64,000 bases of DNA from Cytidiella melzeri. Lineage: Eukaryota; Basidiomycota; Agaricomycetes; Polyporales; Irpicaceae. Of this stretch, positions 5,343 through 49,650 are shown in pieces. The position numbers and the translations under genes were made by a program. The stretch is taken from contig JABYQR010000030.1 in the NCBI GenBank assembly GCA_022592445.1, positions 162,201 to 226,200 on the forward strand, given 5' to 3'. Under the pieces are notes generated by a model, which saw nothing but the letters and a program-made list of their open reading frames with translations, ran no database searches and was not told the DNA's origin. Each line of letters begins with the position of its first letter. Within the stretch, counting starts at the first letter, position 1.

Positions 5343-6070
5343 TTATCCAAAGAAACTGACAATCTTACCCACAATCCCCTTTTTGTTGGAACTAGAAGGG
5401 CCCTCAGGAGGGTTTGAACTGTAAGGGGGGGGAGGGTCATCAGGTAGAGCAGCCGGGTCAGAAGAGGGTGCAGCCTGGCTTTTGGCAACCCAGCTTTTAG
5501 AGCCCCCACTTTTGACAACCTGGCTTGTGCTAGGGGGAGCAGCTGGCCCAGAAGAACTTGTGCTAGGGGGAGCAGCTGGTCTAGAAGAATGGCTGGACGG
5601 GCCAGGGGCATTAGGTCCATTGTTGGGCTGTCCGTGGTGGTAGTATCTGTTGTCGTCCCAATGTGACACTCCCCGGGCAATATGAAGTATTTTGTGGCTG
5701 TCTTTGAGCGCTGATGTGACAGCACCAGGGGCAAGGAGTGCTGCCTGTGTTTCCAAGGCAACAGCCTCTGTAGCAGCCACCTCTCTTCTTGCCAGTGATT
5801 GGCAGTTTTCCACTCTATCATCACAACCATGTGCTTGGTGTTGCAACCTTTGCAGATTGAGGTCAGTAGCAATTGGCTGGTTGGACAGACTGAAAGTGGG
5901 TTGTAAGAGACACTCTTGTTTCAGAACACTGCATGAAGTGTAAGTACTCACTGTGATTTCTTGTAGAAGACCTTGGGGGAAGGTGTCAAGGGGATGGCAG
6001 ACACAGTCTCTGCATGGAATATGCTGGTCACAATGGCAGCAAACAATGCGAGAGGGGTTGAGAAACGCAT
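5343..6070 (-). CDS. Small secreted protein, shared-signal family member A
   Basis: Model: exons 5952-6070 and 5343-5889 with a 62-nt GTGAGT..TTTCAG intron; 666 nt, 221 residues, whole codons. The ATG at 6070 opens a hydrophobic signal peptide starting MRFSTPLALFAAIVTS and ending near VSAIP, shared with genes at 27286, 42030 and 49328. The mature part is unrelated to the other members. It has a neutral N-terminal half, a Pro/Ser/Ala-rich middle with PAAPPSTS twice and a PPPPY motif, and the tail KKGIVGKIVSFFG. An untranslated-leader intron (6131-6185) and a TATA box (6263-6270) precede it. A secreted role is inferred from the signal; function is unknown. Confidence 0.65.
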
Positions 6071-6262
6071 GATGAGCAAGAATGCAGAATGTTGAAAGGT
6101 GATTGCAAAGTCAGCACCAAGTCAGCTCAGCTGTAAGCATGATTTCAGCCCAAGGTGAGTGAACCGTGATTGACCATGTACTCACCGACCTGCGCTTGTT
6201 GAAAACTGGGGCTGAGGGCAAAGGGATGGTGGTAAGTGGTAAAGGGATGGTTGCAAGTGGGG

Positions 6263-6270
6263 TTTATATA
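6263..6270 (-). promoter_or_regulatory. TATA box of secreted-protein gene A
   Basis: On the minus strand this reads TATATAAA, followed about 80 nt later by a GTGAGT..TTACAG leader intron (6131-6185) and then the ATG at 6070. The spacing fits a fungal core promoter. Confidence 0.55.
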
Positions 6271-6399
6271 GTTGAAGGGGATTCGGGTGAGGTAGGTAAC
6301 CATGGTAGGAGCCCCTGTCAATGAGTTATAATCACGAAATATCTCCCAAATCATCCCTTCATCATGTTTTGTTCAAGTCTCAGATGTTCTGTGTTGCAG

Positions 6400-7030
6400 G
6401 TCACTGCAAATCCTACAAACTCGACTAGTCACAGAAAACGGGGCTGTGAACCTAGTTACTATGCCAAGGTATTCGGACGTGTCTCATGATGTATTCTTGG
6501 CATTGTGGCTTCGTAACGAGAGGTGTGTGCCGTGGAACCGATATCAACAGCAACAGCCTGTACAAGACAGAGAGGTTCTCTTCGAATTCAGTACTACCTA
6601 CTAATATTCTGAGCAGGACAATGGCATATCCATTTTGAGATTGACTGACAGCAATTATTATGCGACTCACACACACATATAAGCAGGTACGACAATTCAT
6701 TGACTTCAGTCAGCTTTTGAAATAGTATCATTACTTACCCGCCAGTGGCGAGGGTCGATGGAGTAGCAGGTTCCCGCCCTTTGACACGTCTAAGGGATCT
6801 TACACGATATTCGAATTTACGCGTACAGCACAGCATAAGCCTCAGCCCCGCACCTGTTCACGAAGCGGGCATTGTCTATCGGACCCCGTTATTTGACGCC
6901 GTTATAACAAGATCATCTTCAACATCTCCCGTCGTCTGGTTATACAAGAGCAACAAGGATAATCCTCCAGATGCAACGCACGCAGTCCTGTCTCTCTTTC
7001 CTCTACTTGTACCATAGGACCTTTTGCGGG
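6400..7030. other. Intergenic, nothing recognised
   Basis: Open frames here are short and lack family motifs. CpG frequency rises at about 6.4-6.8 kb, marking the passage from repeat-like DNA into the gene island. Confidence 0.4.
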
Positions 7031-7032
7031 AT

Positions 7033-8375
7033 ATGGGGCTAGTCACGACTAGCGGACTGCTTTTGCTCTCGATGATTTTGACGACGGACATGGCTGCTAC
7101 TACTGCTGCGACGACAGCTGTGGACCCCAAGGACAACCCAAAAATCCGTCGAAGTGTATTCCGAACAATGCGTTGACGACCATTGGCCTCAGTAAGTGTC
7201 TCGTTCTTTTTGAGTTGAATGTCTTCATAATCCTGATATTCTTTACGACTCGATCAGTTCTCACTGTCATCGTCGCTATTTCCCACACATGGCTGATTGA
7301 CAAGACAAAGGCAAAGTACATGCTGGCTATCGTCATCGCCGAGTGCTGTATGTGTGATTTCCATTTCATTTTTTTTTGGCTGGCACCAAGTCACTTGTGG
7401 CTCATGCTACCCTTTCCGAACAGGCTATGGGATTGGAATTGCTGCCCGCTACGGCTTACACTCCGATCCTGACAGTCACGGTATATACATCCTCGAATAT
7501 CTCTTTATCACCCTCGCGCCGTGCGGCTTCATCGCCATGGAGTATGTCATACTTGGCCGCCTCGTGCATTGCCTCAACGGGGACAAGCATTTGTTGATAC
7601 GGCCGTCGAGGGTCACGAAGGTGGTGTTCGTTGCGTCGGATATCATCACCTTTTTGATACAGGTTTGTGATTGCTATTGTTATGAGACTCGGGAGAGCAC
7701 TGACAGGGACCTTCTTTGTAGGCTAGCGGTGGTGCGATAGCTGTTTCATCTCGTACCGACATCAACAATGTCCGTCTCGATGAACACGTATGTCGAAATT
7801 TCCACCACTCCGACTCTTGAAATACACGTTCGTAACACCGTCGGACCCGTCTACAGAAGTATTTCTGCTGGGCCATATCCTCCAACTCATCTCATGCACA
7901 TTCTTTACCTTTATGCTCCTGCACTCTTAATTTACCATGCGCAGGTATGAGTTGCAAACGTGGTGGAGAGACGGTTTGTATGGATTGCCGTGGCACAAAG
8001 ACTGGCGTGCTCTGGCGTTTACTACGGTCTTGAGCTGCGTGGGACTGCTCGTCAGTCGTTCCACTTCTCGCCTCAATGTAAGCTGCCAACGCCTGGTTAT
8101 CTCGATAGGTCCGTTCAACGAACAGGACCATCGAGCTATCCTAGAACGACTCCGGCCCTCTCACCGCCAAAGAAATCTTCTTCTGGGTTCTCGACTTTGT
8201 GCCATTGTTGGTCGCTATCTCACCCTACATTCCTTTCTGGTCAGAACGGTTCATTGGACGTGACGGGGGTCTGGAAAAGGAACATCAGTATGGCTCTGGA
8301 GTTATGTTTCAGACGATGCACGGCGAGTCGACGCAGAGTATCTGTATTCGAATAGCGGGTGTAGTTCATGGATGA
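7033..8375 (+). pseudogene. RTA1-like membrane protein, disrupted copy
   Basis: RTA1 proteins are multi-span fungal membrane proteins linked to lipid-translocating or stress-resistance roles. Conserved pieces are IPNNALTTIG, ISHTWLIDKTKAKYM, LAPCGFIAMEYVILGRLV, the VASDIITFLIQASGG block, VRSTNRTIELS and AKEIFFWVLDFVPLLVA. Introns are clear at 7192-7257, 7348-7423, 7663-7721 and 8051-8108. The ATG at 7033 starts a signal-like segment. Four lesions are seen: a base seems missing from the A-run at 7140-7144, another at the exon start near 7860, an in-frame TAA lies at 7928-7930, and a TAG at 8142-8144. Both stops could come from C-to-T change at a glutamine codon. It may be a true pseudogene; the two indels could instead be assembly errors. 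Confidence 0.7.
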
Positions 8376-8703
8376 ATTTGTAGATTCAGTGGTTATGGGC
8401 GCGAACATTTTTTTGCATAGCATGGGGCTAAGATACCGAGTGTAGTGGACAATACAAAGTAGATAGCGTAACCAAAAGCCTGTTCATGATACCACACTCG
8501 ACTAGTCGACCATAACTACATGAATTTACTAGCTTGTGCTAATTGAACGCTGCGAGGGTGTGAACAACCTTTGGAGGACTAGAGTAGGCAGTTCAGTGCC
8601 ACTCACGATAGAACATATGACAGAAACGCGTGTGTTCTAGAAAACGTGTCGATAGCACATTCGGATTGCGGGCGATGGAAGCGAAAGCACGATTGGGCAA
8701 GGA

Positions 8704-9318
8704 TCACAAGTCTTGCAAAAATGCGGCTAGACCTGTGCTACCTCCCGCAGACCGTTCCTTCTCCTGCCGCTCTTTGTTACGGGCCAGCATATCCGATAAG
8801 CCAGACTTTTTCTTCTTCGCGCGTGCTTTGCTGCGGTCGTCTGTAGGTTTTGGATGCTGTGTGGATTTCGAAGGATTTGGTCCGGTCAAGGTCGTGGACA
8901 GAGGCCAAGAGGCAGAGACCTGAGGGTTGGGTGTTGGAATGAAGCTGAAGTCCGGGACAGCGTTGTTTACCGAGGTGGTCGTAGGCTGTTTGGTGACTCC
9001 TGGTGGTGGATCGTCAACCGGTACCTCTTGTTCCTTGCTGCACACCATGCACGACTTCCGCAACACCCGAAGATAAGGCTTGCCAGATCTCCGCGAGGCG
9101 CTCTTGCGCACCACCCGTACAGAGCCTGTGCCTCCCAACAAGTACGTTCCACATGTTATACAATGAGTCGTGTCAAAGGTGTGGCTAGCGGCGTTTGGAG
9201 AATGGATTAGGCGAGAGCGTGTTACATGAAGAGCTGCGATAGCTGGCGAAATGCTCTGTACAACTCTTGGTATAGCGAGCTGAAACTTTAGCGTCGCTGG
9301 ATGTACTTCAGAGGCCAT
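8704..9318 (-). CDS. RNase P/MRP protein subunit, Rpr2/Rpp21/SNM1 type
   Basis: Single-exon model of 204 residues starting MASEVHPATLKFQ. The frame extends upstream but only through a non-ATG codon. The middle has HCITCGTYLLGGTGSVRVVR followed by RVLRKSCMVC, the paired-cysteine zinc ribbon of the Rpr2/Rpp21/SNM1 family. The C-terminus is basic (KARAKKKKSGLSDMLARNKE) and ends LAAFLQDL, as in SNM1-like proteins. Such proteins bind the RNA of RNase P or RNase MRP in the nucleus or nucleolus for tRNA or rRNA processing. I cannot tell which enzyme it joins. It is divergent from the BTB-like gene at 9667, with about 350 bp between the starts. Confidence 0.7.
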   Translation of the reverse strand: MASEVHPATLKFQLAIPRVVQSISPAIAALHVTRSRLIHSPNAASHTFDTTHCITCGTYLLGGTGSVRVVRKSASRRSGKPYLRVLRKSCMVCSKEQEVPVDDPPPGVTKQPTTTSVNNAVPDFSFIPTPNPQVSASWPLSTTLTGPNPSKSTQHPKPTDDRSKARAKKKKSGLSDMLARNKERQEKERSAGGSTGLAAFLQDL

Positions 9319-9666
9319 CGTCGACAGTGGCAGAGACAATAAAGCCGCTAAGTGAGAACCGGCGCCAAATGCATTGTACTTGCCGCAAAGCGCCGAGGGA
9401 CCGTGTTTGTCCTAAAAAGGCAACGTGGATGTTATTGTCTGCTCGTGTTATTGTTCTGCCCTTATACTCTGTCCTCATTTTAGCCATGCACCCTGCGCTC
9501 CGCACCCTTTCTTCACTTTCGTCTTTCCCTTCTGCACCTCGCTTTGACAGCGAACCATTAGCTCTTTGCAACACCCACGACCGTGCTCGTCAGACTCCTC
9601 TCACAACCTCCTGCTGGCCACATTCATATACAACTCAAGTTTCGTCAACGCACCCTTCTCACTCGG

Positions 9667-11230
9667 ATGTCTACCGCATCTATCCCTCGCACCACGAGTA
9701 CTACTCGCATTTCCAAGTCTCCCAAGTCTCCACCAGCATTTCCAGAAGAACGATTTGTACCCGTATCTTCCGTCAAGATGGCTCCCAAGTCACATCGACC
9801 ATCCCTCACTTCTCCAATGAACTGGCTCGGCAGGTCCTCCAGCTCATCTAGCACAGGATCATATGCGCCCTCGAAGCCTGTTCGCATCTCCGAGCCTTTC
9901 GGCACAAGCTCGCTCGACAGGCTAACACGTAGCGGTCAGCTCGGTACAGGCGCTATCGTCGTGCGTACACCGCAAGAAGCCCTTGCAGGCCGCACGAGGA
10001 GTCCGGAGAAACAGGAGCGTATACTTGAAGAGGAGAACGAGGCAGGTGTGGGGCACAGTGCAGACGAGGGTCGTCCTGCCAGTCCGCCTCTCCCCCCTCT
10101 TCCGGGTGACGAGGATGACGAGGAGGCTCTATCTAGCATGTCTAGCACTCCTTCTCCTCCTTCGCGACCTGTTCCCCCAACACCGATTGAAGAGGAACCT
10201 GAGACTCCTTCGACAACTAGTCCGTCTAGTTATAGTCCAAAGTCGAGCACTTCGTTGAGGGTCCTCGACCAATTCCCGCCAGTTCCTGCTCTCCCTGCAA
10301 ACATGCCACCATCTCCCCCACAGGCTCCGTTCGACCCGATTTTGCTGTCGCCTGCTCCCAACGGTGCAATCGACCGCAGCAAGATCATCGTGTCTCTGGA
10401 GACTGCGACTATGACTTACAAGGCCACCCTCAACACGCTCATGTCACGATCATCGTTCCTTGCTACGTACCTACAATCTTTATTGCGGTCACAAGAAGAA
10501 GAGCCGCAGTCGTCTCTACCGCGCGACTCTCAGAGTTCTTTCAACTCGATATTCCACAAGCACCTCGCGTCTTCTGGACTTCTCCCGTCAACTTCTACGT
10601 CCATTCACCTGTTCCTTGACCGCCCAAGTGGACCGTAAGTTCTTTGTTTATTGTAGTCCACTGAGCTTCAGACTGACGATGTGTCCAAGATATGCTCACA
10701 TCCTTTCGTATTTGCGCACCCCGGTATCGACGCCAGAACATCCTGCGGCGTTACCACGTGCAGTCCAGCTCCTTTCTTCGTCGTCATCTCGACTCGAAGC
10801 GTTGCTGGAGCTCCGCGACGAAGCCCGTTACCTCGACCTAGACGAGCTATACAAGCTGTGCACGGATGAATTGCGGGCTCGTCAGAGCCTTGGTCTTAGC
10901 AGGCCGTCGATGCATACCCGCGGGATGAGCAGCATGAGCGTGAGCTCTGGCTCGGTCAAGAGTCTGGGTATGGGCCCACTCCGGGAGAACCTCAAGCAGT
11001 ATGAGGGAGAGGACTACTTCGACCTTCATAAAGGGAAGAGGCTGTCCAGAGACTCTGGCCTCGGCTCTTCCACAAGCAATTCTGTGGCAAGCGCGAAGGC
11101 AAGGGGCAGCATAATGCCAGAGGTCGTCACGACCCCGTCGTTGGTCTCATTCGGCCTTGCACAGCGTCCCAAGCTCCAATCGAAGAAGTCGTCTTCCGTG
11201 CGGGGTCGCCCAACAGGCGACTGGATTTAA
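9667..11230 (+). CDS. BTB/POZ-like (KCTD-type fold) protein with disordered N-terminus
   Basis: Exons 9667-10634 and 10690-11230, intron GTAAGT..CCAAG; 1509 nt, 502 residues. The ATG beginning MSTASIPRT was chosen because the longer frame starts at a GTG. The first ~230 residues are Ser/Pro-rich and acidic, and look disordered. From about residue 240 there is a BTB-like pattern: IIVSLETATMTYKATLNTLM, SSFLATYLQSLL, then across the intron IHLFLDRPSGP and YAHILSYLRTP, and EARYLDLDELYKLCTDELR. This resembles potassium-channel tetramerisation-type BTB domains, which mediate oligomerisation or ubiquitin-ligase adaptor roles. A Ser-rich tail follows. The partner is unknown. Confidence 0.65.
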
Positions 11231-11531
11231 CGAGTACAATGGTTTTTGACGTTCATTTTGGGAAAGCCCCAACTGGTATTTAACGACCTCGTTCGCTCTG
11301 ACTTCGTCTATGTTCACCTTACGACTGCCGACTGCTTTAATGCGACCCAGGATATTGTCCGCTAACGCTCTTTCTCTACTGATCATTGTACATTAGCCAC
11401 ACACACCATGCCTGTCCTTACCTTCTTGTATCCTTATAGAATTTGTACTTGTACTAGGTATACTTTGTGGAGATGTTTTGCACGCTGCGGCGCCATTTGT
11501 TCCGTAGCAGTGGCAATCAATGACATTTCGT

Positions 11532-12030
11532 TTAACGCTTCGGCGCCCACAACTCGTACAGTTCTTTGTCCGCAGGATCGAAGCAAGTCACGATAGACGG
11601 GTCGGAGCGAACGACCAGCTTTCTGACCGGTGTGCCTATGTTCATCAGCTGCATATTTTGCGCGGATTGGAGTGCAGAGAGGCGCAGGGAGGGACGAGAG
11701 TCCAGTGCACGCGAGATGTTGCCCGAGGTTGAAGCTGTGGCTGAGCTTGGGGGTGAAGCGTTTTCAGCTGGCCGTGGAGAGCCCTGTAGAAGCAACGTGA
11801 AGCAACGTGTAGAGAGAGTACAAATGAGTACGAGCTGGGGTATTCGTAAGCGAACCTAGCTTGATCTGACCGGTTGAGGAGTGGAAGGCCGTCGGTTCCG
11901 CAGACTGGCATCGGGGTCTGTTGGGACGTCCCGACCTATAGAGACAGTGAGAAACGGCCTGCAGCAACAAGGTATCAGTGTGGTCACCTGGAGAAGTAAA
12001 AGGCGATGTCAAACGCGTCGAGGATGCCAT
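11532..12030 (-). CDS. Small unrecognised protein, three exons
   Basis: Exons 11988-12030, 11871-11935 and 11532-11783, with 52- and 87-nt introns. The total is 360 nt, 119 residues, whole codons. The start ATG gives MASSTRLTSPFTSPGRD after splicing, then a basic and proline-rich stretch (RNRRPSTPQP). The C-terminal half contains LRLSALQSAQNMQLMNIGTP, then SIVTCFDPADKELYELW. I do not recognise the family. The clean splice phases and the conserved-looking C-terminus argue for a real gene. It is divergent from VID27, with only about 175 bp between the two ATGs, so the promoter region must be shared. Confidence 0.55.
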
Positions 12031-12205
12031 GAATGTGCTAGTTTTCCTCACCAGAGGTGCAGAGTTGAGGAGCGTGATGGCCAAGCTGTGACATAACGTG
12101 ATCTTGAGTCACGTTGATGTGACCGAACGCGGCGCGATCGGTGCGTCACAGGGGCCGCAAACAAGTTGAAGCACTTCAAGAGCTTTCTTTCTGACCACCA
12201 CCACC

Positions 12206-15016
12206 ATGAATATTTTCCGCAGTTGTACGTGTTTTGCTGATCCGGCATGGTTCATTTGCTGATATACATCTCTACCAGTGATGGGAAAGGTCTGGCGTAA
12301 GTCTCAGATCAGTTTTCGCGCACCAAGCCCGCCTTGACATCATCGTCTTTATCTTAGACGATCCTAATGCTGCAGAGGTCGTGAAGATATCCGAGGGTCA
12401 GCTGTATCTGGTTCGGGAAGAGACTATTCGAAGTGACAGGGAGTGCATGTGCGTATACTTATGTAAGAACGCGCTTTCGAATGAGAATTCGACCTCTGCT
12501 GCACAGATACAACGATGCCATGGCCACCATCCGGCGAGTACCCTCCATCGACCATCACTTTCAGCTTGTCATCACCCGAGTATACGAGGATGGTGATCAG
12601 GAGCTGCTAGAGGATGAGGATGAAAGTGAGTTTAGAACTTGTTTGTGCTTTTTGAAAGGCCAAAACTTTTCGCAGCGGACGAGGAGCGTACGTTCCTCAT
12701 TGGGGAGGAACTGCACTTCAGGACGGGCCAAACTGATGGCGACCCTACTTTCATATGGCGGGATATCGAAGGCGACGCCACCGAGTTCTATGAGTTTGTT
12801 GCAAGAGGCACCAATGAACCGACGAGGGCCTTCTTCGAGACTTGTATGTACCGGGCTATGTATGAGCGGAAATACAAGACCACTGCCGACAGTACGCAGG
12901 ACAAGGATTTGGCGGAGTTCATCTGGCAGTGCGTAATTTCGTATTACCTGAAGCGTGTTCTAATCAGCGCACATAGGCCTCCACCACCCAAGAATGAGAA
13001 AGCCAAAGCCACCAAGAAACGCTCTACATCCTCACAGTATCTAGAAGAGCCTATATCCTCTCAAGCTTCGGCCTCCCAGTCTACCGCATCTGAAAGCGAA
13101 GTGCTAGAGGCGCTACCAACACCACACATTGATCCTGGCATACAGACCTACACCGGTGCAGTTGCCATGCTTCACCGCCATGACTATGAGCAGGGCAGAT
13201 TTGTGCAGGAGCACGCAGTATTTGCACAGATTGTCCGACTAGTCAATAGTCCTCCATTCGAGTACTACCTCATGGCAGCAAATGGCGAACACGTTTTTCT
13301 AAGCCATCAGATCACTTCCGACATGAACCAGAACATCGCCAGGAGCATCAAGTCGCTAACATGGAACCATATCAGCGACGGCATTGGGGAAAGTTGGTGT
13401 TTGGAGTTCTATGCAGACGAGGATTTCAAGAACGTCATTGAGGGCCTGACGATCGCCCTTTGGGAACACGGTAATCAGTTTTCATGGGCAAAGGCAAAGG
13501 TACATATATGAAACTACATCTTGTGCTCTGTCTTACCCAATGTTAAAAACAGGCGGATGAGCAGGCATATGCAAGGAGCGCCAATGAGGATGTCGAAATG
13601 AAGGATGTCGAGGACGAGTCTGATGACGAAGAAGCTGTCCTCGATGAACTTGGTGAGTGCTTTTCGTCTCTTACAATCGAGAACAGATGTCTCACCATAT
13701 CGCAGAGAAAGAGGATGATGACGAATCAGAACAGGAAGACGACGATGACGTCTCTGAAGACGAGGAAGATCGACCCCCAGCGTTGGGCAAAGGCGAGAAG
13801 AACTCTCAGCTGACCGTTGGCTATAAGGGCGACAGATCATATGTCGTTCGTGGCAACAACATTGGTGTCTTCAGTCATACAGGAGATCACGGTCAAGTCA
13901 AGTACCACGCGACTATTGGCAAGATTGCGGTGCCGAAGACTGGACGTGCCATCAAGCCCAAACAGGTTATGCTACACGAGCAAGACACCAAGATGGTGAT
14001 CATGGACGAGGGCGCGCCGAACTCCCTCTTCGAGCTCGACATCGAGCGCGGGAAGATCGTTGAAGAGTGGAAGGTGAACGAGAACATCCCTGTCAAGTAC
14101 ATCGCCCCCGATAGCAAGTTCGCACCGATGACACGCGAGCAAACGTTGGTAGGAGCCTCCGGGAACGCACTTTTCCGAATCGACCCTCGCATGAGCGGCG
14201 ATAAGATGGTAGAAAGCCAGTACAAGCAGTACGCGGGCAAGAATAAATTCTCAGGTGTGACCACCACTGCTGCAGGCAAACTTGCCGTCGCATCCGAGAA
14301 GGGTGACATCAGGCTGTTCGACGCGATTGGCAAGAACGCGAAGACGGCGCTGCCTCCGCTTGGAGATCCCATTATCGGCGTGGATGTCACATCGGATGGA
14401 AGATGGGTGGTCGCAACGACGAAGACATACTTGTTGCTGATTGATACTTTAATCGGAGAGGGACGCTATGCGGGCAGTTTGGGCTTTGATAGGAGCTTCC
14501 CTGCGGACGCGAAGCCGATACCGAGGAGATTGCAGCTGAGAGCGGAGCATGTTGCGTATATGGGACATGCGGTGGATTTCACGCCTGCAAGGTGCGTCAT
14601 CGCATGTTAGTATCAAGTGCCACACGTCAACTGAAACCAACTCCAATCGGACAGGTTCAACACAGGCGAAGGTCAGCAAGAGAACGCGATCATCACCTCG
14701 ACAGGCGAATTCGTCGTCGCGTGGGACTTTGGCAAGGTCAAGAAGGGCTTGCTCGACAGATACGAAATCAAGAAGTACGAGGATCACGTTGTGCAAGACA
14801 ACTTCAAGTTTGGTGATGATAAGGAAATCGTGCGTGTTCTTGTCTCCTGCTCTGCTTGGCTTTGATTGACTCGTTTACTTTACGTAGATTGTTGCAATGG
14901 AGAACAACGTCGTTGCTGTCAACAAGAAGGCTCTGCGTAAGCCGACACGAGCGTCACTCGCCACGCCGACGAGGAACTTGCGTAGTCGGTCAAGTATCGT
15001 GAACAGCCCGTTTTGA
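12206..15016 (+). CDS. VID27: VID27 family protein
   Basis: Ten exons: 12206-12221, 12279-12296, 12358-12448, 12507-12625, 12676-12928, 12977-13499, 13553-13652, 13706-14591, 14655-14829, 14888-15016. The sum is 2310 nt, 769 residues, close to the yeast protein length. The N-terminus is MNIFRMMGKVW followed by an EGQLYLVREE segment. The middle has FIWRDIEGDATEFYEFVARG and RAFFETCMYRAMYERKY. An acidic linker (near 13600-13770) precedes the conserved C-terminal WD/beta-propeller-like domain with IATIGKIAVPK-type and VDVTSDGRWVVATTKTYLLL repeats, ending NSPF. Yeast Vid27 was linked to vacuole import and degradation, but its molecular role is poorly defined. All splice sites are GT..AG and no lesion is seen. 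Confidence 0.93.
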
Positions 15017-15560: not shown

Positions 15561-15569
15561 AAGCGGAAA

Positions 15570-27589: not shown

Positions 27590-28266
27590 TGTAACAGTAA
27601 GGTTACTACTCACCAGTTAAGTTGTTAAACTTGAGGGGATAGAGTGAGATAGAGTGTGAGAGAGGTGGTGAGCGAAGTACAAGAGAGTACTGAGTAGTCC
27701 TTTATCAACAGAGTGGATAAGACTGAGGGGATATGCCCTCAGGAGTGCCTCTATATATACACAAAGGGGAGGACCCCAGGTACTACCCTAAGACCCCCAA
27801 TACCTACATGAGTAAGCAAAGTAATCTACCTTACTAAGCATGCCCTATGCCCTAGTGGTGCCACTTCAATAATCAACCAATAGCAATTGTCCCCATGACC
27901 TGACCCCATGACCCAGCTCCAAGGCTAGACTTGTTCTAGCTTGTTCTAAGACAAGGCTAGACTTCTCCAGAAGGTTCTATGAACTATGACATCATCTAAT
28001 GGAATGTTCTATACTATGACATCATAGTTCCAGCAAGTTCCACAAGGTTCCAGAGAGTTCTATCATGTGATACACAGATAAGAAAAGGAGCGCATCAGCG
28101 CATCAATTGATAGGCACTGAGAATAAGCGCTGGAATAGGCGCCTGATAAGCGCCAGATAAGCGCTGGATAAGCGCCTGAATAGATGCTGGATAAGCGCTT
28201 AAATATTCCCAATAATACCGTTGCCTGGTAAGGCAAGTCTTGTAGAAACATTGAAAATCTGTGACA
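27590..28266. mobile_element. Solo LTR of the chromodomain gypsy family
   Basis: Begins TGTAACAG and ends CTGTGACA, 677 bp, flanked on both sides by GATAT (27585-27589 and 28267-28271), a 5-bp target duplication. Almost the whole sequence matches the LTR at 59764-60488. It lacks one stretch of repeated GCGCATCAGCGCATCA present there. No internal region remains, so it is a recombined solo LTR. It is less decayed than its surroundings, hence fairly recent. Confidence 0.93.
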
Positions 28267-36684: not shown

Positions 36685-36713
<29 letters not shown>

Positions 36714-36718
<5 letters not shown>

Positions 36719-37368: not shown

Positions 37369-38083
37369 TGTCACGGAGACAGAGCTCAATGCAGCAACTA
37401 GGGACTATAGCACAATTTTATCACCACCTATAAACCTTATTCAGGTATCTATCCCAGTAAAGACCAAGATAGTATTCTGACTACCAGCTATGTAGTACCG
37501 AGGGGTTTGCTTACCTAGCCCAGTAAGGAACAAGAGGTCGAGATGGGGGGTTAGGAGCATACATGCAGCAGTATAATAGACTTCAGGGACCTGCGCACAG
37601 ACCATGTTAAGGGCAGGCTTTGCAAGAAGCCTTGTGAACAAAGAACAATAGAACTACCTAAAGGAGAACAATAGCTATCGTCTGGACTCTGCCAAGACCT
37701 CTACTCGTGAGAGAATCTATCTAAAAGGAGACCAGTTATTGTGTTCCATTCCCACACCTGTGAGAACATTTCTACATAAAGAGAACAATAGGGAAAGAAC
37801 AATAGGAGTTCATGTGAACAGTATCAATGATGTCAAACCCTAGCTATGGGCTGAGCCATGTGGTTGTAGCCATGTGGTCTTACATAAGCTGAGTCATGTG
37901 CCAGTGTGATGTAGCAGCAAGTAACATGATCATGTAGAGCATCTGAGCCACGTGATACGGGGGCTTAATAGACGTGCAAGTGGTTTGTGCAATGAGGATT
38001 GCAACTGGGTTGCAGCCCAAGGTTTTTGAAGATAAAAACAAGGGGTAAATTGCAAAAAATAAGGGCTAGTCGGGCCATCCACA
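37369..38083 (-). mobile_element. LTR, second family (LTR2), minus orientation
   Basis: Read on the minus strand it begins TGTGGATGGCC and ends CTCCGTGACA, about 715 bp. It matches the plus-strand copy at 59201-59763 over most of its length (TGTTCTCACAGGTGTGGGAA, CACGTGGCTCAG-type blocks, CATCTCGACCTCTTG). No coding internal region was seen. No clear 5-bp duplication flanks it, so it may have been rearranged. Confidence 0.75.
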
Positions 38084-38093
38084 ACAAATTCAC

Positions 38094-38240: not shown

Positions 38241-38489
38241 TTCTTTGATCTGTTATGTATAGTAAGTTGGTGGTTTGTCTTCACTGGAGCACACGATCAT
38301 TTAGGGAAGAGGAGGGACTATGCTGTATTGTTTGAAGTACAACAATGGGTGTGAGTACAGAATTAGACAAGTTTGTGGAGTAGAGCATGGAGATAAAGAT
38401 TGTTTGACATGCATCTTCTTATTAATGGTGTTGAACTATGTTAAATAGCTTAGATACAATTTGGTAAACTGCAGGAGCAGGGTTACAAA

Positions 38490-39262: not shown

Positions 39263-39289
39263 ACATTGTTTAAGAATGGAGGGGTTGAG

Positions 39290-39850: not shown

Positions 39851-40095
39851 CTCATATATGGTTTCACAATGGGATACACACTGACATACATACTGAACAC
39901 AATGGTCATACTACAGAAATAAGCTGTGATCTGTCAACAACAGTTGTTTAAGGATGCAAATGTTCAGTTGCAATATACATGCTCTACCATAAACTAAACA
40001 CATCCTTTCATATAAAAAGTAAAACATTCAAATAACATTTTGGCCTTCAGGAATTGTATCTTGCCACTTGCTGCCCTACTCCCGCAAGTAAGTCA
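39838..40095 (+). repeat. Inverted repeat R2, left arm
   Basis: Matches the reverse complement of 43640-43890: AATGCTCATATATGGTTTCA, GAACACAATGGTCATA, and TTCAGGAATTGTATCTTGCC are found in both arms. The arms enclose about 3.5 kb that includes secreted-protein gene C. Confidence 0.85.
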
Positions 40096-41200: not shown

Positions 41201-41204
41201 TGGT

Positions 41205-41600
41205 AATTCATGCTTATATCGTGCATTGTGTTCTGATGATGATTCTTGCCCAGAGAGCAAGCAATGTGTGTAAGTTGCTGTACAAGTCTACAATAGACTT
41301 GAGTGCCTGGCCAATATTTGGCATCATTTTGCTGATGTGACAGCAAGTACAAGAGTGCAGTTTTAATCTGAGTCTGAGTAACTTTTTCAGTAAACTGGCC
41401 ATACCGTGCTCAATCCCACTTCCATTGACAAGATATTGGGCCAGGATGTTGGCACAAGATAGGGCTATCTGATGATGTATGAAATGTATAGATTTGTGCC
41501 TATGTGCAGTCTTTCAAAATCAGAAATGGTATCTTGATTGCAAAAAGTGATCTGATACAAAGTTTATAAAGGCTGATAACAAAGCTGGTGTAATGCCATG
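41205..41600 (+). repeat. Repeat family R1, copy 3
   Basis: Same order of blocks as 39300-39700 (AGAGAGCAAGCAATGTGTG, CTGAGTCTGAGTAACTTTT, AAAAGTGATCTGATACAAAG). It lies about 430 bp upstream of gene C, as R1 copy 4 lies upstream of gene D. Confidence 0.8.
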
Positions 41601-41784
41601 GTGAGGGTTGTGACTGAAAGCACAAGCTGATTCACGTAGACCAGTGCTCAGAAAATTCTGCACAACACAGCCTGCAGTTTTAATCAGACTGAGACAGCTT
41701 GAAACCCTGTATCAAGACATTTCCAAACCTCCCAGCCCAATAGTACCTCTGACCACCTGTGCAGTATTTGCTGCATCATTTGTT

Positions 41785-41802
41785 GCATCAGCACTGCACA
41801 TG
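41785..41802 (+). promoter_or_regulatory. Shared upstream motif, gene C
   Basis: GCATCAGCACTGCACATG followed by AGCCAGAAGATATAATG. Downstream is a 63-nt intron in the leader (41902-41964, GTAAGT..CTTACAG) and then the ATG at 42030. Confidence 0.6.
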
Positions 41803-42029
41803 AGCCAGAAGATATAATGAACCCATTGGCATGATCCTTCTACATCAACACAACCATTGCCATTTGCTCCACAGCACAATTCACTACTTCAGCACTGATT
41901 GGTAAGTAACTTGTGATCTGTGGTGTACTGACTATGGTTCAATGTGCTAAAACTGCTCTTACAGCTAGCTGTCTTACCATTTTACAAAAAAATTTCATTG
42001 TCCCTCAACATCCTACACTTTTTGTTGTC

Positions 42030-42449
42030 ATGCAGTTCTCAATCCCTCTTGTTTTGTTTGCTACTGTCCTCAACTGTGCATTTCATGCTGGGTCTGTGTC
42101 TGCCAAACCACACAGCCCTGCCTATAGTCAAGGCAAATATCCAGCATATGGGCATGAGTGGGCCAAACCTTACGGTAACTTTTCAAGTCTTCATGTCTTT
42201 CATCCAATCCATCTGACCAAACAAATTCCAGAGTTGGCCGAATCTGAGCTCTCACACTTAGACAAACTAGGCCGGACTGATCCTGGTGCTTATCAAAAAC
42301 TTAAAGAGAAGATGGAGAAAGTTTGGCACCAAGGAGATGCACAACCAGTACCAGGTACCATTGAGTTTGCCATGTACAAGAAGGTAGCCAACCGCTTGGA
42401 GTGGAGTCAATGGTCACAAGATTCTAAGACTTACCGGTCAGCCGAATGA
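42030..42449 (+). CDS. Small secreted protein, shared-signal family member C
   Basis: 139 residues when read without splicing. The signal MQFSIPLVLFATVLNCAF, then HAGSVSAKP, aligns with genes A, B and D. The mature part is hydrophilic (SHLDKLGRTDPGAYQKLKEK, then a Trp-rich ending LEWSQWSQ) and unrelated to A or B. A 57-nt segment (42175-42231) has GTAACT and TTCCAG ends and sits where gene D has an intron. It keeps the frame, so two forms of 139 and 120 residues are possible. A longer upstream frame exists but the shared ATG and leader intron favour this start. Secretion is inferred; function unknown. Confidence 0.65.
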   Translation: MQFSIPLVLFATVLNCAFHAGSVSAKPHSPAYSQGKYPAYGHEWAKPYGNFSSLHVFHPIHLTKQIPELAESELSHLDKLGRTDPGAYQKLKEKMEKVWHQGDAQPVPGTIEFAMYKKVANRLEWSQWSQDSKTYRSAE

Positions 42450-42852
42450 AGTGACTGGATGATTTCATGCTAGGTACCAGCTTTAGTAAATATAAAACAC
42501 AATTCTGAAACCAGTATATGTAAATATTGAGCAAGGTACCAGTGTCCACCCTACATAACCACCATGACAGCTATTAAAGCTGTAACTTGTATGAAGATCT
42601 AACACTGGTGCCATGTATGTTTGCACCAAGAGCACAGTCAAGATGTTGCAGTCAACTTCCCCACCTCATGCAATGTGGTGCACAACAAATGACAGAGCAA
42701 GGAATTGCAGAGCAGCAGGAAGAGATCAAAAGTTACCAGAGACACGTGCAGATTTGTTCTTTCTTCAAAATGTACTCATGCTTACCTCACTGAGGCTCAG
42801 GGAATAATCTGAACTCATACTCCTAAAGAAAACCTTGGCAAGTTTCCCACCC

Positions 42853-42853
42853 T

Positions 42854-42903
<50 letters not shown>

Positions 42904-42905
42904 AG
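42853..42905. repeat. CT microsatellite
   Basis: About 50 bases of CT dinucleotides with one TTT interruption near the end. Confidence 0.95.
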
Positions 42906-43169
42906 GCAGAAGTCCTACAACAACTTTACATGGATAATAGCTGCTGCCTCACAAGAACTGGTGGTTCAGGGCATTGAATTTGATGAACAGGTCTGTTGTC
43001 TGGAAATGGTTTTTACTTGTCAAATCTGGACTGTGGTTGCTGCTATGGATAGAAAATCCAAGTGCTACACATTTTTACCTTCTACTTCACAATCAACTAG
43101 CTAGCTGTTGCTTTTCACACAAGCTTTGTTGCTTCCCAAAACCAAATTTCAATCAGCAGCAGTTGCAAC

Positions 43170-43620
43170 ACAACCATGCACTCATGGCTGGCAAAGATAT
43201 CAATATCTCCAACCCATTTCAAGGCCATTCTCCATTATTGGCTCAACAAAACGTCTAAATTTTGACAGACCTGTGTTTGTCAGTTGCACCTCACCCATGT
43301 CCACACCACTTTTTCAAGAAACATTTGAGGTTGTTTCTAAATCCTCATGCCCAGGCTTGCTGGTCCCTCCATCCACATCACTTGAGCAACCATGATTGTG
43401 TGCCCACAGCATTTCATAGCCTTCTGCCACTCTCACCTTGTACACCAGCACTTGGTGAGTCAGCCAGTGCATATTCTCCCATGTAGCAATGCTTCATACC
43501 TTCTGAAACAACCCAACTGCTTGTTTGTTGATCTGTGCAACAAGACCAGACAGAGAACCCCACCATTGGAAGCTCTGAGCAGTACTAGAGAACAAGTCAA
43601 GTAAGAAGTAATTAGAGCAG
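43170..43620 (-). pseudogene. CpG-decayed copy of the hypothetical gene at 52325-53182
   Basis: Plus-strand sequence matches 52290-52740 in the same order and orientation, for example CATAGCCTTCTGCCACTCTC here against CATAGCCTTCCGCCACTCTC there, and CTTGTACACCAGCACTTG against CTCGTACACCAGCACTTG. Most differences are CG in the other copy against TG or CA here. Frames are broken. It and the peroxygenase relic at 46160 form one old duplicated segment. Confidence 0.85.
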
Positions 43621-43639
43621 ACCAGGCTCAAGTGCGGAT

Positions 43640-43890
43640 TGCAGGAGTAGGGCCAGCAAGTAGCAAGATACAATTCCTGAAGTCCAAAATGTGATTTGAA
43701 TGTTGTACATATTAAATGAGAGGATGTGTTTAGTTTATAGTAGAGCATGTATATATTGTATCTGAACATTTGCATCCCTAATTAACTGTTATTGACAGAT
43801 CAAAGTTTACTTCTGTAATATGACCATTGTGTTCAGTATGTCTATCAGTGTGTATTCCATTGTGAAACCATATATGAGCATTGTTATCAA
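43640..43890 (-). repeat. Inverted repeat R2, right arm
   Basis: Partner of 39838-40095, see there. It abuts the decayed gene copy at 43170-43620, so it probably inserted into the duplicated segment. Confidence 0.85.
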
Positions 43891-44162
43891 TAATATGGCA
43901 AGTGAAATAGCTGTCACCATGTAGGCAATTCCACACAAGTTGAGCTCATATCTACTAGCCTGCATAGTATATACAAATTTGAATGAAATGTCATCACCTC
44001 TATGATAGCAGGTACACTTTTTCTTTGATGTGATGTGCCTCAAAGCATTCATGCAGTTGGAAATAGTTTGCCTGTTACATGAGCCATTACACTTGAAATA
44101 TTCTTCCAGCTATTCTTTGTGCAGTGCCATAGAGTAGATCTAATGTTAAGATACTATCATTC

Positions 44163-45014
44163 ATGCGGTGTTTGTAAAAACCCGGCGCTCAGCACATTGC
44201 GCTGAGAGCTCCCGCCTAAATCTGTCAAAAAGTACATAGAACTATACCTGTGCATCTTGATAGTATGCTGTATTAAATTCACGCTTTTTAGAGAGGAACA
44301 GCGAGCTGCGGCAGGATGTCAAAGAGGGGTAGAAGAGAGAAGGGGTGTTTGTAAAAACGTCACGGTTGGTCACACCGGCATGAGGTCAGCATATTGTCAC
44401 TCCAACGCGGCTTACCATATGTAGTATCACCATCAGCTGAGCTCATCAGCGAGAGCAGTGTTCGTAAAAAGTGTGTTTGGGTAGATTACCATGTGTATTA
44501 CAAGGTCAAGAATACTGAACACTTCGACGTGAATCAAGAAAGAAGGGGCCGCAAAGCAGTGGCTAGAAGTTGCAGCAAGCAGGTACCAGACGCAAAACGC
44601 AAACACGATGTTGCGACGAGGCTGCGATACGCCTCTTAGCAGAGTTTAAACTGCGCTCGGTCTCAAAGTCACACATGTCTCGATATTGTTCGTAAAAACT
44701 ACTCTACACATGTACACAGAGCAATCAGGCTGCTGGAGCAGCTTTCAATGCAATATTAGTCACTTTGCTTCTGCAAGACGGTCATAAAATATGCAGTACA
44801 TCAGTCAGAATCTCTATCCATCAATCTGAGTAAAGTACAGAAACTCACTGCTTTGTCTCTACCGACTTCATCCCTCGCATTTATACTACTTTGCTTACAC
44901 CAAAATAATGCTATAGTCGTCCTTTATTGCTCACAGTATACTTAGAATATTTGGACGTGCGCAAGTATCGAAAGTACTAGTGTTCGTAAAAACAGGTGTT
45001 TACAAACACTGCAT
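44163..45014. mobile_element. 852-bp non-autonomous DNA element with subterminal TGTTYGTAAAAA repeats
   Basis: The ends are inverted: ATGCGGTGTTTGTAAA (44163-44178) and TTTACAAACACTGCAT (44999-45014), 15 of 16 matching. TGTTTGTAAAAA or TGTTCGTAAAAA recurs at about 44169, 44346, 44460, 44690 and 44983. It has many CpG sites inside a CpG-poor block, so it is a later insertion. Its short frames do not resemble a transposase. Target duplication not evident. Confidence 0.6.
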
Positions 45015-46150
45015 CAACAATAGTATATCACAGTATAATGCTATTGATTTTGAGCTTGTAACTGGTAAAAGCATCTACTCACAAAGTTCTCCTACATTGT
45101 TACCAGCTGCATCTATGAAAGATATATCTTGTAGATCCTGATGCAGGCAATCTTGATTGATGATTATACCATCTCCAATGTCACTATCTCAAAATTCAGA
45201 TCTTTGAAGATATCACAAAGCATTGTCAAGTAATTATAGCCTGTCAGAGGTGATTTTTTTCATTTGTCACTATCCTTAATCTTGATGTTGATGAGTGTAG
45301 TAAACAAGCTATCATGCACACAACTATATGATCAACTGTTCCAGTTGAATTCCTTGAGGCCAAGTCAATTGGGTAGTACTGGGTTCAAATTGATTGTTGT
45401 GTCTTATGGGTTTGGTTGAGTATTTGACTTTTTCCAAGTCCTTTCTACCCTTGTTGATTGATTTTATACCTTGCACCTCACTATAAAATTCAATATCAGT
45501 TGTGACTTGAGCAGAGACAAATTAGTCTACTGTAGCATTTATATGTTCACTTGGTTGATCTTCTAATGTATGATTGACTGTCTTATTGATATTCTATCTC
45601 CCTTGGTTCTGTTCAATGTTTGCCAGACTGCCTCTTCAAATAGATCCTCAATGCTGTGAACATCTTTACCATGCCACTTTCATTGTTGTGGCAGAGTTTT
45701 GAATATGTAATCTATCCCTCTGACATGTCACCATGATGATATGCAATGATTACCACAAACACCTTTGGGTATTTTTTCACGAATCTTGATTAAGTGATTT
45801 TGTCAAGTAGTGCTAAAGCAGCAAATTGCTGTCTTAATTGTCTAACAGTCCTCATATCCTATGCTTATTTGAGAGGTCTTGTGTAACTCATGGTATGTGG
45901 TAAGTTCACCCATGAGACAAGCAAGCATCAATGGACTTTTGTCAAAAGATTGACTCTGAGCCCAGCAATGCACCTTGAGAGATTCTGCTTGCATTTAATT
46001 GTAGCTACTGATGCAGTATAGAATATTCTTCTGGCAGAGTTTTAACACATTGAACTGATGCATTTCATCAATTGGTAGCCACAAATCCCCACACTTAGTT
46101 GATGAGTAATACCAGTAAAACATGATCGTTGAGGTCTGCAAAGAGATGTG
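45015..46150. other. CpG-depleted sequence without a recognised gene
   Basis: AT-rich with almost no CpG and only short frames. By position it may be decayed sequence between the two duplicated gene relics, but I see no clear match to 52.8-53.5 kb. Confidence 0.4.
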
Positions 46151-46159
46151 TAAGTGTGG

Positions 46160-46492
46160 CAAACTGGCTGCATTGCCTCAGTGGAGTTGTAAGTTGTCAT
46201 GACATACACACAATCAGGTGCTATAGGCTTGTCAGCTTTGTATCCAGTAGACTCAGTTGGATAAAATATAGCTTCCAGCCACTCCCATCATGAGATGTTG
46301 TGTCACAGGTGCTTCAGGCACAAACCCACACTCATTCTATCCTCTGCAAGGTGGAGACTCTTGTGTTCCATGTCATGCCATGAGCTTTATGGCACACCGC
46401 AGCTATATTCCTTGTGACAGCAACTAGATTAACACAGAAATCACTATCAATCCACTCATGGAGTGCTTCCATCTTTCCAAGCCTCTTGGTAT
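46160..46492 (+). pseudogene. CpG-decayed 5' fragment of the peroxygenase gene at 53698
   Basis: Matches about 53505-53945: GCATTGCCTCAGTGGAGTTG against GCATTGCCTCGGTAGAGTCG, TCACAGGTGCTTCAGGCACA against TCACAGGTGCTTCAGGCGCA, and CTCATGGAGTGCTTCCATCT against CTCATGGAGTGTTTCCGTCT. Nearly every CpG of the intact gene is TpG or CpA here. About 100 bp around the start codon is deleted and the 3' three quarters of the gene are absent. Confidence 0.9.
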
Positions 46493-46684
46493 ACCTAGCA
46501 CAGGGTGTGAATAGATACTTTGCACCTGTGCCAGTCGTAGTCCTTTCAAACAGAACATGTTGATCATTGGATATCCATGGATAGTATCACAACACTCATG
46601 GCGGCACTGATGCACTGGTCCTCCTCCTTCCTAATCTGTCTCCTCAGGTGGGTCACCACTGGACATATTGTTAAAGGTAGTAAA

Positions 46685-46760
46685 CCAATGGTGGCAAGGG
46701 GCTTCATTTTTCTTGTTGTTAATCTTGTGCTGTGTTTATGACTGATGCAACAATCAGATG
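46685..46760 (-). promoter_or_regulatory. Second orphan promoter relic of the secreted family
   Basis: GGTGGCAAGGGGCTTCATTT and the following TGCTGTGTTTATGACTGATGCAAC line up with the promoter of gene B (27368-27415) and with the relic at 40865. The TATA part is decayed. Confidence 0.5.
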
Positions 46761-47665
46761 TAGCACTCTTTAGCACTCACTGTCAACGCAAAACAGTTAC
46801 ATGCTTCAAGATTATAGGAGCTTATCAGAACTGACTTCCAACACATGTTACATGTGTCCTGTCAATGTCTGAACTGCCTTGTTGTCATTGGAACAGCCAC
46901 AGGCTGTGTTCTGCTGGTGATCGTTGCTCAGACAGCAAGTAATGCGTGTGGAGCTTTGTGAACAATTGGTTGCAGTGCTTAGCACTGACACAACCAGAAT
47001 TCACCTGCTCCAAAGAATAAAGATATCAAATTGTCTCGTAAGAGTCAGCTCCTGAAACACTGTTGATGCTTCCTCAGAGCATGTAGTGCTTGCGGATTGC
47101 TGTACATGTCTACCATAGGCTGTGTTCTGATGGTAATCTCTGCTCAGAGAGCCAGGAATGTTTGTAGATCAGTTTATATGTCTATGTCTACAATAGATTT
47201 GAGTACCTGGCCAGGATGTAATATTATCTTGCTCATGGGCCAGCAAGTACAAGAGCAAGGTTTTTGGTCTGAGTCTGAGTGACCTTTTTTCATTAATCAA
47301 TCCCAGTTCAAATGAAAATCTTCTTGGGCCAGGGTATGGGTATAAGATAAGGTCATCAGATAGTGTGGAGTATGTATTCATTTGTGCCTATGTGCTGTCT
47401 GCAAAAGTCAAAATTTCATTTTGTTTGCAATATTCTCATACAAAGTTTCAAAGAATTGATAGCACAGCCAGTGTAATGCAATAATTGTGTTTATTGCATT
47501 AAATCTCATAACTGTTACTGTTTATTGTTTGTATCTGCCATCAGATTCCCACTCTTTAGAAGACAACTGGGTCACATCTGTAAAAGTACCAATGTACTGG
47601 CATGTGAACCAGAACAATTCTCAATTCTTCAGGCATTGTAAAAGTGCCCACTGCCAATTTCTTGC
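46735..47665 (+). repeat. 144-bp monomer copy plus repeat family R1, copy 4
   Basis: 46735-46990 resembles a unit of the 38.5-39.26 kb array; 47045-47665 follows the R1 order and ends with a TTCTTCAGGCATTGTAAAAG version of the shared end. Confidence 0.75.
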
Positions 47666-47810
47666 ATATATTATTGGATAGTATGCAGCTAACCTATGCA
47701 ATGTGCAGTGTCTAGTAACTATCTGTAAATTATCAAACTCTAGGTAGATATGCAGGTTAACCTACAGGTACCTGTTAGTAACCATCATCCATGCTCAGCT
47801 CTATACTAAT

Positions 47811-48255
47811 TTGGGACCTGTGATATCTACATGAGTAAGTAAAGCAATCTACCTATTCCAAGCATGCCCTATGCCCTAGTGTTCTCACTGCAATAGTTGA
47901 CCAATAGCAGTAGTACTGTTTACAATCCAATGACAAAAATTTTCAAGCTAGACTTGATCTAGCTGCTTCTATGACTACTGTTGACAGATACATGATGTTC
48001 CATCAGGTTCTTCAATCTACTTTGACAGATCCCTGATATTTAACCATGTTTCAGCATCTCTTATCATGTTCCATAGGGATCACCATGTGGTTACACTGAT
48101 AAGCTAAGGAGCATATCAATGCATCAAGAATAGGAGGTACATTGGTACATCAGTTGATAGATGCATGTAGGTGTATCCATGGACTCATACAAGATCCCAT
48201 CGTGAATGTTGCCTTATCAGGCAAGTTTGAGACAACAATGAGAATCTGCAACAAA
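47811..48255 (+). mobile_element. Old, decayed LTR of the chromodomain gypsy family
   Basis: Shares CTACATGAGTAAG, CTACC, AAGCATGCCCTATGCCCTAG and TGCCTTATCAGGCAAG-like blocks, in order, with the LTRs at 27590 and 59764. CpG-containing GCGC units of those LTRs are lost. Ends are not clear. It shows that the family has been inserting here over a long time. Confidence 0.75.
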
Positions 48256-48390
48256 ATTGAAATTGCCACACAGCTCTCAACCCAGATGTAAAGTTTTTTG
48301 GGAAGTCAAGCAATGCTGTACTAACAGCTAGCCACCATCTTGTTGTCACCCAACTACTATGCAACCACTATCTGACTGCAAATTTTTGGC

Positions 48391-48558
48391 TGTACTTACT
48401 ATTGATAAGGACCAGAAATTGCAAATTGTGGCTGTACTTACCATTGATAAGGACCAGAAATTGCAAATTTTGGCTGTACTTACCATTGATAAGGACCGGA
48501 AATTGCAAATTGTGGCTGTACTTACCATTGATAAGGACCGGAAATTGCAAATTTATCT
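48391..48558. repeat. 42-bp minisatellite, four units
   Basis: Units start at 48391, 48433, 48475 and 48517, each TGTACTTACYATTGATAAGG followed by ACCRGAAATTGCAAATT. Being a multiple of three, the array is open on both strands (plus: LTIDKDQKLQIVAV repeated). Confidence 0.95.
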
Positions 48559-49081
48559 GTGTGGACCAGTACCACATGGTTACCCACAACTTCATCATGG
48601 CATGCAGAACATAGCCTGCAGGTGTGATAAGGATGAGACAGCTTGGAAGTTGACAAAAACACATGTAATATTTGTTTCTACATCACTGTGCATAACAACC
48701 TGTAGTTGCACAATTTCTGTGCAGCACCCAGGGTTCTTTTTAAATTGGGTGAAATTGTCACAGTCAGTCACAAATGAACACAAGTGATCCTGCCAGTGTG
48801 ACAAGCCAATGATCTTGTTAACCACTACAGCTTGTGTTCTGTTTTCACTCATACCTCTGATTGTACCCTGCTTTTCAGCAACCAGCCTTGTTGAGCCAGC
48901 ATGGCACAATGACTGACCCAAGATGTCAATCTGTGACTGACTGAGACAACCTAGCAGGCCAAATCAAGAAGGCTGGGCATCTCAGAAAATTGTGCAACTG
49001 CATTTTGTTGCACAAAGCAGCGCAAGACATATACAACCCTTGATAGAGCATTTTTGCTATCTGTGTACTAGTATTCAGTAC

Positions 49082-49117
49082 ATCAGCACTGCACATGAGC
49101 AACCAGATATATATATA
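49082..49117 (+). promoter_or_regulatory. Shared upstream motif and TATA tract, gene D
   Basis: CATCAGCACTGCACATGAGC is followed by a TATATATATA tract (49107-49117). A 63-nt leader intron (49200-49262, GTAAGT..CTTACAG), the same length as that of gene C, lies between this and the ATG. Confidence 0.6.
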
Positions 49118-49327
49118 CCAAGCCCCCAGCCTTGTAAGTATCTCAGTACACCTTCATCCACTCCAGGTCTTCAGGTCTTCATTGCTGCAGTGCTGGTCAG
49201 TAAGTACCTCATTGTTGGCATTTCACTGGCCTTAGATCACAGTGCTGAAACTGTTCTTACAGCTAGCTGTATTACTATCCCTTCAACCCTTTTCATCACC
49301 CTTCAACATCCTATACTGTTGCTTGCC

Positions 49328-49650
49328 ATGTGGTTTCCAACCTCTTTTGTGTTGCTTGCTGCTGTTGTTACCAGTGGGTTCCATATGGTGGCTGGGTCTG
49401 CCATACCAACTGGGAAAGGGCTAGATGAACCCTCTAAACTCATTAACGGAGCTAGACCCACTGAACCTCAAAGTAGGTGACTCTCCCAGTCTGCATGTTT
49501 TTCACTCATCTCACCAACTGGATGCCAAAAGCATTTGCAGGATTTTACCAACTCAAGAATTTTCTACCAGAAGCTGACCAGTTGAAAGCAGCAGGAATAC
49601 CCAAGAACCCGCCACCACCATCAGAGGGTTCCGGGGCAAAGAAAGACTGA
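49328..49650 (+). CDS. Small secreted protein, shared-signal family member D
   Basis: Exons 49328-49472 and 49541-49650 with a 68-nt intron (GTAGGT..TTGCAG, phase 1); 255 nt, 84 residues. The intron lies at the position of the in-frame 57-nt segment of gene C, and the two introns are similar in sequence. The signal MWFPTSFVLLAAVVTSGF, then HMVAGSAIP, aligns with A-C. The mature part is only about 58 residues: a polar first half, QLKNFLPEADQLKAAGIP, then NPPPPSEGSGAKKD. Without splicing the frame stops at 49480 after 50 residues. Secretion inferred; function unknown. Confidence 0.6.

Follow-up and report, generated by a model that had tools for sequence, protein, structure and literature searches.

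A 64,000-nucleotide stretch of the genome of Cytidiella melzeri (Irpicaceae, Polyporales; assembly of 49.7 Mb in 731 contigs), here called the window (C224:162201-226200), contains four members, W6070, W27286, W42030 and W49328, of a large gene family whose products share a leader and differ strongly behind it. We interpret the family, with modest confidence, as lineage-specific, effector-like secreted proteins, in which the mature part would be altered by diversifying selection and the 5' module would be kept alike by its function and probably also by gene conversion. Its genes would follow one plan: a conserved 5' module (proximal upstream DNA, a 5' untranslated region (5'UTR) usually with an intron, and a signal peptide), behind it a short pro-region, in many cases closed by a dibasic Kex2-like site, and finally a hypervariable mature part. 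A preliminary description of the window had placed four leaders, free of gaps over 27 residues, at the ATGs of these genes, and the alignment confirms this.

Thirty-three members were examined first (the window's four genes plus 29 loci taken from the top rows of the genome searches), and 19 further members were added later to give 52 in all. The 33 leaders align without gaps to the consensus MQFSTSLxLFAAIVTSAFHxVTVSAIP, in which M1, A25 and P27 are invariant; a hydrophobic stretch followed by a VSA/IP-like junction was read from this alignment as a putative signal peptide. As a DNA query, window positions 49328-49650 find the W27286 gene over the leader (E 1.5e-8), and the leader of W27286, as a protein query of the genome, gave 150 scored places among 173 candidates (E<=10), in none of which the leader contains a stop codon. 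Further searches contributed 16, 11 and 10 additional places, and a pattern search another 15 that are leader-like. The union thus holds no fewer than 202 leader-like places, spread over 154 contigs; this count omits some rows (C207, C35:171918) and 5' fragments, and not every added place in it was checked for an open frame. The leader pattern with up to two mismatches matched 351 times versus 91 times for the reversed control, and about 260 leader copies are therefore a fair guess for the size of the family. Protein searches returned 28 distinct proteins, one of which (P0028) is the window's own protein; 26 of the 28 are named NCBI models of C. melzeri (BC835DRAFT_; these models are predictions only).

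The leader is under coding constraint and its similarity is not merely that of a repeat. For the leader and for the DNA-match statistics, 43 of the 52 members were used, leaving out near-duplicates and L070, which was dropped from the later pair statistics because scattered single-base deletions in its gene and 3' flank resemble assembly errors. Among the 903 pairs of these 43 leaders, the proportion of synonymous differences (pS) was 0.442 and that of non-synonymous differences (pN) 0.236, with pN<pS in 877 pairs; differences at codon positions 1, 2 and 3 were 0.301, 0.175 and 0.399. Read in frame +2 the relation was reversed (pS 0.248, pN 0.302), and in frame +1 the bias was weaker but had the same direction (0.365, 0.266). 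Past residue 27, the median open length is 112 codons in the leader's frame, compared with 26 and 11 in the two others (n=33); a run of 80 or more open codons occurs in the leader's frame of 21 of the 33 members and in the two others in 3 and 1. Most of the proteins are shorter than 300 amino acids (aa), L014 reaching 318.

CpG observed/expected was below 0.5 in 23 of the 33 family genes (first 450 bp), compared with 33% of the window's 450-bp bins, which bears out the CpG-poor setting described earlier. A repeat comparison that covered 20 loci of approximately 8 kb and the window identified dispersed repeats at window positions 37409-38087, 59764-61855 and 27590-28266, which also occur in the 8-kb surroundings of other family loci (approximately 82-97% identity). 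We considered and rejected a transposon unit carrying the genes, as similarity is mostly confined to the 5' module and the repeats near the loci so compared lie at differing distances. That the family is an ordinary dispersed repeat with a frame open by chance is hardly credible: the many copies in CpG-poor DNA and the repeats nearby would be expected of it, but the in-frame constraint on the leader, the length of the open frame and the agreement of 26 of the 28 proteins with named (predicted) gene models speak against it.

The upstream sequences have in common a predicted 5'UTR intron, CTGGTCG/GTAAGT ... TTACAG/CTAGCTG (slashes mark the predicted borders). Donor and acceptor occur at the right spacing in 28 of the 33 members, whereas shuffled sets reach 0.62 on average and 4 at most; two of the 28 signatures (L029, L017) look accidental, and by this donor/acceptor test the signature was not found in W27286, L004, L022, L025 and L035. 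The NCBI model P0002 has a translated upstream exon, which is read here as joined across the 5'UTR intron. Member-to-member DNA matches take in the leader in 85-87% of pairs, positions -150 to -50 in approximately 19-29% and the region beyond +150 in at most 2%; the non-coding 5' DNA is therefore better conserved than the mature coding part. Matches spanning the ATG (1407 of 1806 ordered pairs) extend at the median from -12 to +81, the interquartile range of the 3' end being 79-90, and longer common stretches occur in L014/L036 and L015/L030. Offset matches at L016, L026 and L012 and on contigs C384 and C45 suggest tandem extra 5'UTR/intron pieces upstream, which possibly serve as alternative first exons.

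Exon shuffling, proposed earlier as the source of a conserved leader with an exchangeable payload, was rejected for residue 27. The leader's frame runs on past this residue in the 21 of 33 members noted above, so that no splice boundary is needed there, and in other members (W6070, L019) the introns lie further downstream, after about residue 39-57.

In the pro-region, a DNA motif reading G-[DN]-F-P-S-L-H-V-F-H-x-x-D-L-T-K or a variant of it was found in 18 of 50 sequences (score >=16; both near-duplicates L073 and L074 are counted), and in 16 of the 18 carriers it stands in the leader's frame; in W42030 it occupies residues 49-64 (GNFSSLHVFHPIHLTK). On account of this frame count, GGTRACTTTCCCAGTCTGCATGTCTTTCAT..CTCACCAAA was rejected as a second intron in most members. 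The motif stretch is nevertheless read as exon in some copies and as intron in others: in W49328 (window 49473-49531) and L004 it is out of frame, and the NCBI models P0027 and P0015 splice it out. In L014:625-1581 (minus strand) the pro motif GNFPSLHVVHRLDLTK occurs approximately six times within a frame of 318 codons, so the pro-region itself can be amplified. A dibasic pair (KR or RR) was present in residues 36-85 of 23 of 35 members versus 12.0 expected (standard deviation 2.7), and 17 of 35 carried the form [LIVF][TENQVAS][KR]R versus 1.27 expected, a contrast inflated because the members are related and the form was picked after viewing the sequences. Between close copies, identity breaks after two or three further identical residues in L060/L061 (two after ITKR) and L068/L069 (three after LERR), and in L058/L059 the first change lies 26 residues past SKR.

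The mature parts had been described as unrelated. They are indeed hypervariable and many show no link to any other, but the pro motif and a faint similarity among some members do not agree with complete difference. Beyond residue 27, 34 pairs among the 43 proteins match at E<=1e-3 (shuffled mean 0.1), a number that includes nine near-duplicate pairs and counts the pro-region. Beyond residue 60, where 30 of the 43 proteins were compared after near-duplicates had been dropped, 7 of 435 pairs match at this threshold versus none in 20 shuffled sets. Of three profiles built from three-member seeds (E<1), two reached 10 and 9 of 36 members (controls 21/1989 and 16/1989) and the third 4 of 36 (shuffled or reversed controls 33/1989); single controls reach E 0.001, and the pro motif supplies part of the signal. 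A two-helix core (L..L, hydrophobic helix, P, E.A.W), its segments cut by hand, was made into a profile that picked up 6 of the 35 held-out proteins (empirical p<=0.05; binomial p 0.007), including the near-identical L058 and L059, and W27286 was among the 29 missed. The structure model of the mature part of W42030 shows, with modest confidence, three principal helices (mean pLDDT, predicted local distance difference test, 67; pTM, predicted template modelling score, 0.37), that of L022 scored lower (pLDDT 46, pTM 0.25), and a PDB fold search with the W42030 model gave nothing better than E 2.4. So part of the family appears to have a faint common helical core and another part is without visible link. 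In a Pfam scan of 10 proteins none exceeded the curated cut-off, the best being L012 to DUF2793 (E 0.0027, 18 bits, cut-off 27). Behind residue 27, 30 of the 43 proteins have no cysteine, six have one and seven have two, and none has more.

These results bear on the possibility that an upstream/5'UTR/signal-peptide module is mobile and was recombined in front of different sequences, the mature parts being of independent origin. The end of the ATG-spanning matches at a median of +81 and the extra tandem 5' pieces would agree with such a cassette, as would mature parts unlike the rest (L060 is Pro/Gln-rich, P0018 Pro-rich) and a leader distance that is uncorrelated with mature similarity (Mantel -0.067, p 0.15). 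The matches beyond residue 60, the two seed profiles that find other members above controls, and the homology of the mature parts of L068 and L069 (39 of 89 residues identical) speak against it, and an intron at residue 27 is unneeded in 21 of 33 members; we regard independent origin as rather unlikely.

Comparison of close copies, with the border between pro-region and mature part fixed at base 150, places the differences of several pairs mainly in the mature part. L058 and L059 are identical in the 5' flank (0/200), leader (0/81), pro-region (0/69) and 3' flank (0/168) and differ at 19 of 333 mature positions (19/333 versus 0/518 elsewhere, Fisher p 1.3e-8), with 18 non-synonymous changes and one synonymous change. 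In the same order (5' flank, leader, pro-region, mature part, 3' flank), the differences were 0/200, 1/81, 0/69, 93/291 and 19/193 for L068/L069; 1/151, 0/81, 0/69, 243/494 and 64/103 for L060/L061; and 12/143, 3/81, 4/69, 195/487 and 3/136 for L061/L062. Two of the six pairs picked first (L064/L065 and L066/L067) were not close. P0006 compared with L022 has few changes in the leader and a strongly different middle; it may come from a further copy, from another strain or from another species.

In the four unsaturated pairs, dN exceeds dS in the mature part (dN/dS values 0.072/0.015 for L058/L059, 0.441/0.261 for L068/L069, 0.168/0.062 for L061/L063 and 0.081/0.055 for L073/L074; Cochran-Mantel-Haenszel (CMH) odds ratio 2.28, p 0.0013). 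Diversifying selection on the mature part is thus supported but not proved, because the division into saturated and unsaturated pairs was our own choice. Selection alone after a single duplication is not an easy account of L068/L069, in which synonymous sites differ at 12/53 in the mature part versus 0/235 in the 5' flank and leader (p 5e-10); the simplest addition to it would be that the 5' module recombines or undergoes gene conversion.

Several observations weigh against this combination of selection and conversion. The pairs were not sampled but chosen for the similarity of their leaders, from leader-search rows whose scores were equal or close. L071/L072 and L075/L076 are identical throughout, the mature part included, and in L073/L074 the 5' flank (11/204, 5.4%) differs almost as much as the mature part (8/114, 7.0%), so that the concentration of divergence in the mature part is not universal. 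The upstream DNA of L061/L063 is not conserved beyond approximately -47 and the alignment of this pair contains large gaps. All five saturated pairs have dN<dS (CMH odds ratio 0.66, p 0.0006), the nine pairs pooled show no dN excess (odds ratio 0.86, p 0.19), and of L058/L059, L068/L069 and L061/L063 taken singly only L061/L063 is significant (Fisher p 0.015; the others 0.14 and 0.18). KR or RR is lacking from residues 36-85 in 12 of 35 members, and the absence of a leader/mature correlation does not favour simple vertical descent.

Copies that are otherwise identical could also be altered in the mature segment alone by a programmed or targeted mechanism. Islands of divergence flanked on either side by similar sequence, as in L058/L059 and L061/L062, point in this direction, as does the L058 mature part, whose sole other match in the genome is L059, so that no donor for a conversion patch was found. 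The excess of non-synonymous changes in L058/L059 indicates selection instead, the transition/transversion counts (12/7, 34/47 and 23/35) are without strong bias, and two duplicate pairs are unaltered in the mature part, which together make such a mechanism very improbable. Two inverted gene pairs were seen, L058/L059 approximately 5 kb apart on contig C482, diverged only in the mature part, and L071/L072 approximately 9 kb apart on contig C278, which are identical.

A variant of the favoured interpretation, which we consider unlikely, is an antigen-like system of approximately 200-300 dispersed loci with a concerted 5' module, in which recombination between copies together with strong selection would diversify a mature cassette and provide each strain with its own repertoire for combat or non-self recognition.

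The reading of an effector-like, diversifying secreted family fits because of the putative secretion signal, the likely processing of a pro-peptide, the hypervariability, the few cysteines, the lack of a Pfam match above cut-off in the 10 proteins scanned and the occurrence of 26 of the 28 relatives in one species. The signal peptide would be cut off after A25 (VSA/IP), a Kex2-type protease would in many members strip the pro-region, and outside the cell the mature protein would serve as a contact surface in a molecular conflict, in which diversifying selection would keep altering it. The 5' module would stay alike as it would be needed for secretion and shared regulation and would be exchanged by ectopic recombination or gene conversion. 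Competing wood microbes would be the most likely opponents, a choice that is made because of the habitat, and a plant host or self/non-self recognition would be less likely. C. melzeri lives on wood, which fits the habit of its family. The Irpicaceae appear as wood-decaying, white-rot fungi in PMC12770999.

The features of the four members in the window are listed below. Their frames had been called open, and the gene models return the same limits, with two exons each in W6070 and W49328 and no intron in W27286 and W42030. An intron matching that of W6070 is spliced in the NCBI model P0017 of the paralogue L019, and the C-terminal half of W6070 is rich in Pro and Ser. The gene model of W49328 is identical to the NCBI model BC835DRAFT_1412654 (P0027).

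Members of the leader family in the window and their predicted 5'UTR introns (window coordinates)
Feature	Position	Strand	Structure	Product
W6070	5343..6070	-	exon 1 6070-5952, intron 5951-5890 (GTGAGT..TTTCAG), exon 2 5889-5343; gene model	221 aa
W6070 predicted 5'UTR intron	6131..6185	-	GTGAGT..CTTACAG	
W27286	26846..27286	-	one open frame without intron	146 aa
W42030	42030..42449	+	one open frame without intron	139 aa
W42030 predicted 5'UTR intron	41902..41964	+	GTAAGT..CTTACAG	
W49328	49328..49650	+	exon 1 49328-49472, intron 49473-49531, exon 2 49532-49650	87 aa
W49328 predicted 5'UTR intron	49200..49262	+	GTAAGT..CTTACAG	

Judged from its sequences, the family looks like arms-race secreted proteins that are undescribed in the literature searched; among the matches, covered as abstracts and some sections of papers, no description of this family was recognised and C. 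melzeri was not named. The effector-like small secreted proteins (SSPs) of saprotrophic fungi (review PMC7105643) are alike in being short orphan proteins with a signal-like leader and without Pfam match above cut-off (here in 10 scanned proteins), and the present host likewise belongs to a wood-decay family; Phlebia radiata, as cited there, has 430 SSP genes in all. Unlike these, the genes described here form one family at no fewer than 202 places with a common 5' DNA module. The conotoxin superfamilies (PMC3862624) share the plan of signal, pro and mature regions, and within a superfamily non-coding gene parts (introns) are kept while the toxins differ. In most of these superfamilies the gene is divided into three exons, roughly one each for the signal, pro and mature regions, whereas here signal and mature part usually lie in one intronless frame and the conserved intron is in the 5'UTR; nor is there a cysteine framework, since none of the 43 proteins has more than two cysteines past residue 27. 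HYPs are comparable in having a variable domain within a conserved gene frame, but each is a single-gene locus whose many alleles vary in the order and number of motifs, whereas the present family has many loci that differ by substitutions and indels (in one assembly). The candidate secreted effectors of powdery mildews form large lineage-specific families with faintly similar mature parts; here the host is a basidiomycete of the Polyporales, and no RNase-like fold was seen in the (weak) models. Parasites and venomous animals are the usual setting in which large hypervariable secreted families are discussed. One that occupies this many places in a fungus of a wood-decay family suggests that an arms race of the same kind can also arise from combat or recognition between microbes in wood, and gene copies that differ in the mature part but not in their flanks would allow a direct test of whether conversion, selection or a dedicated mechanism makes the variation.

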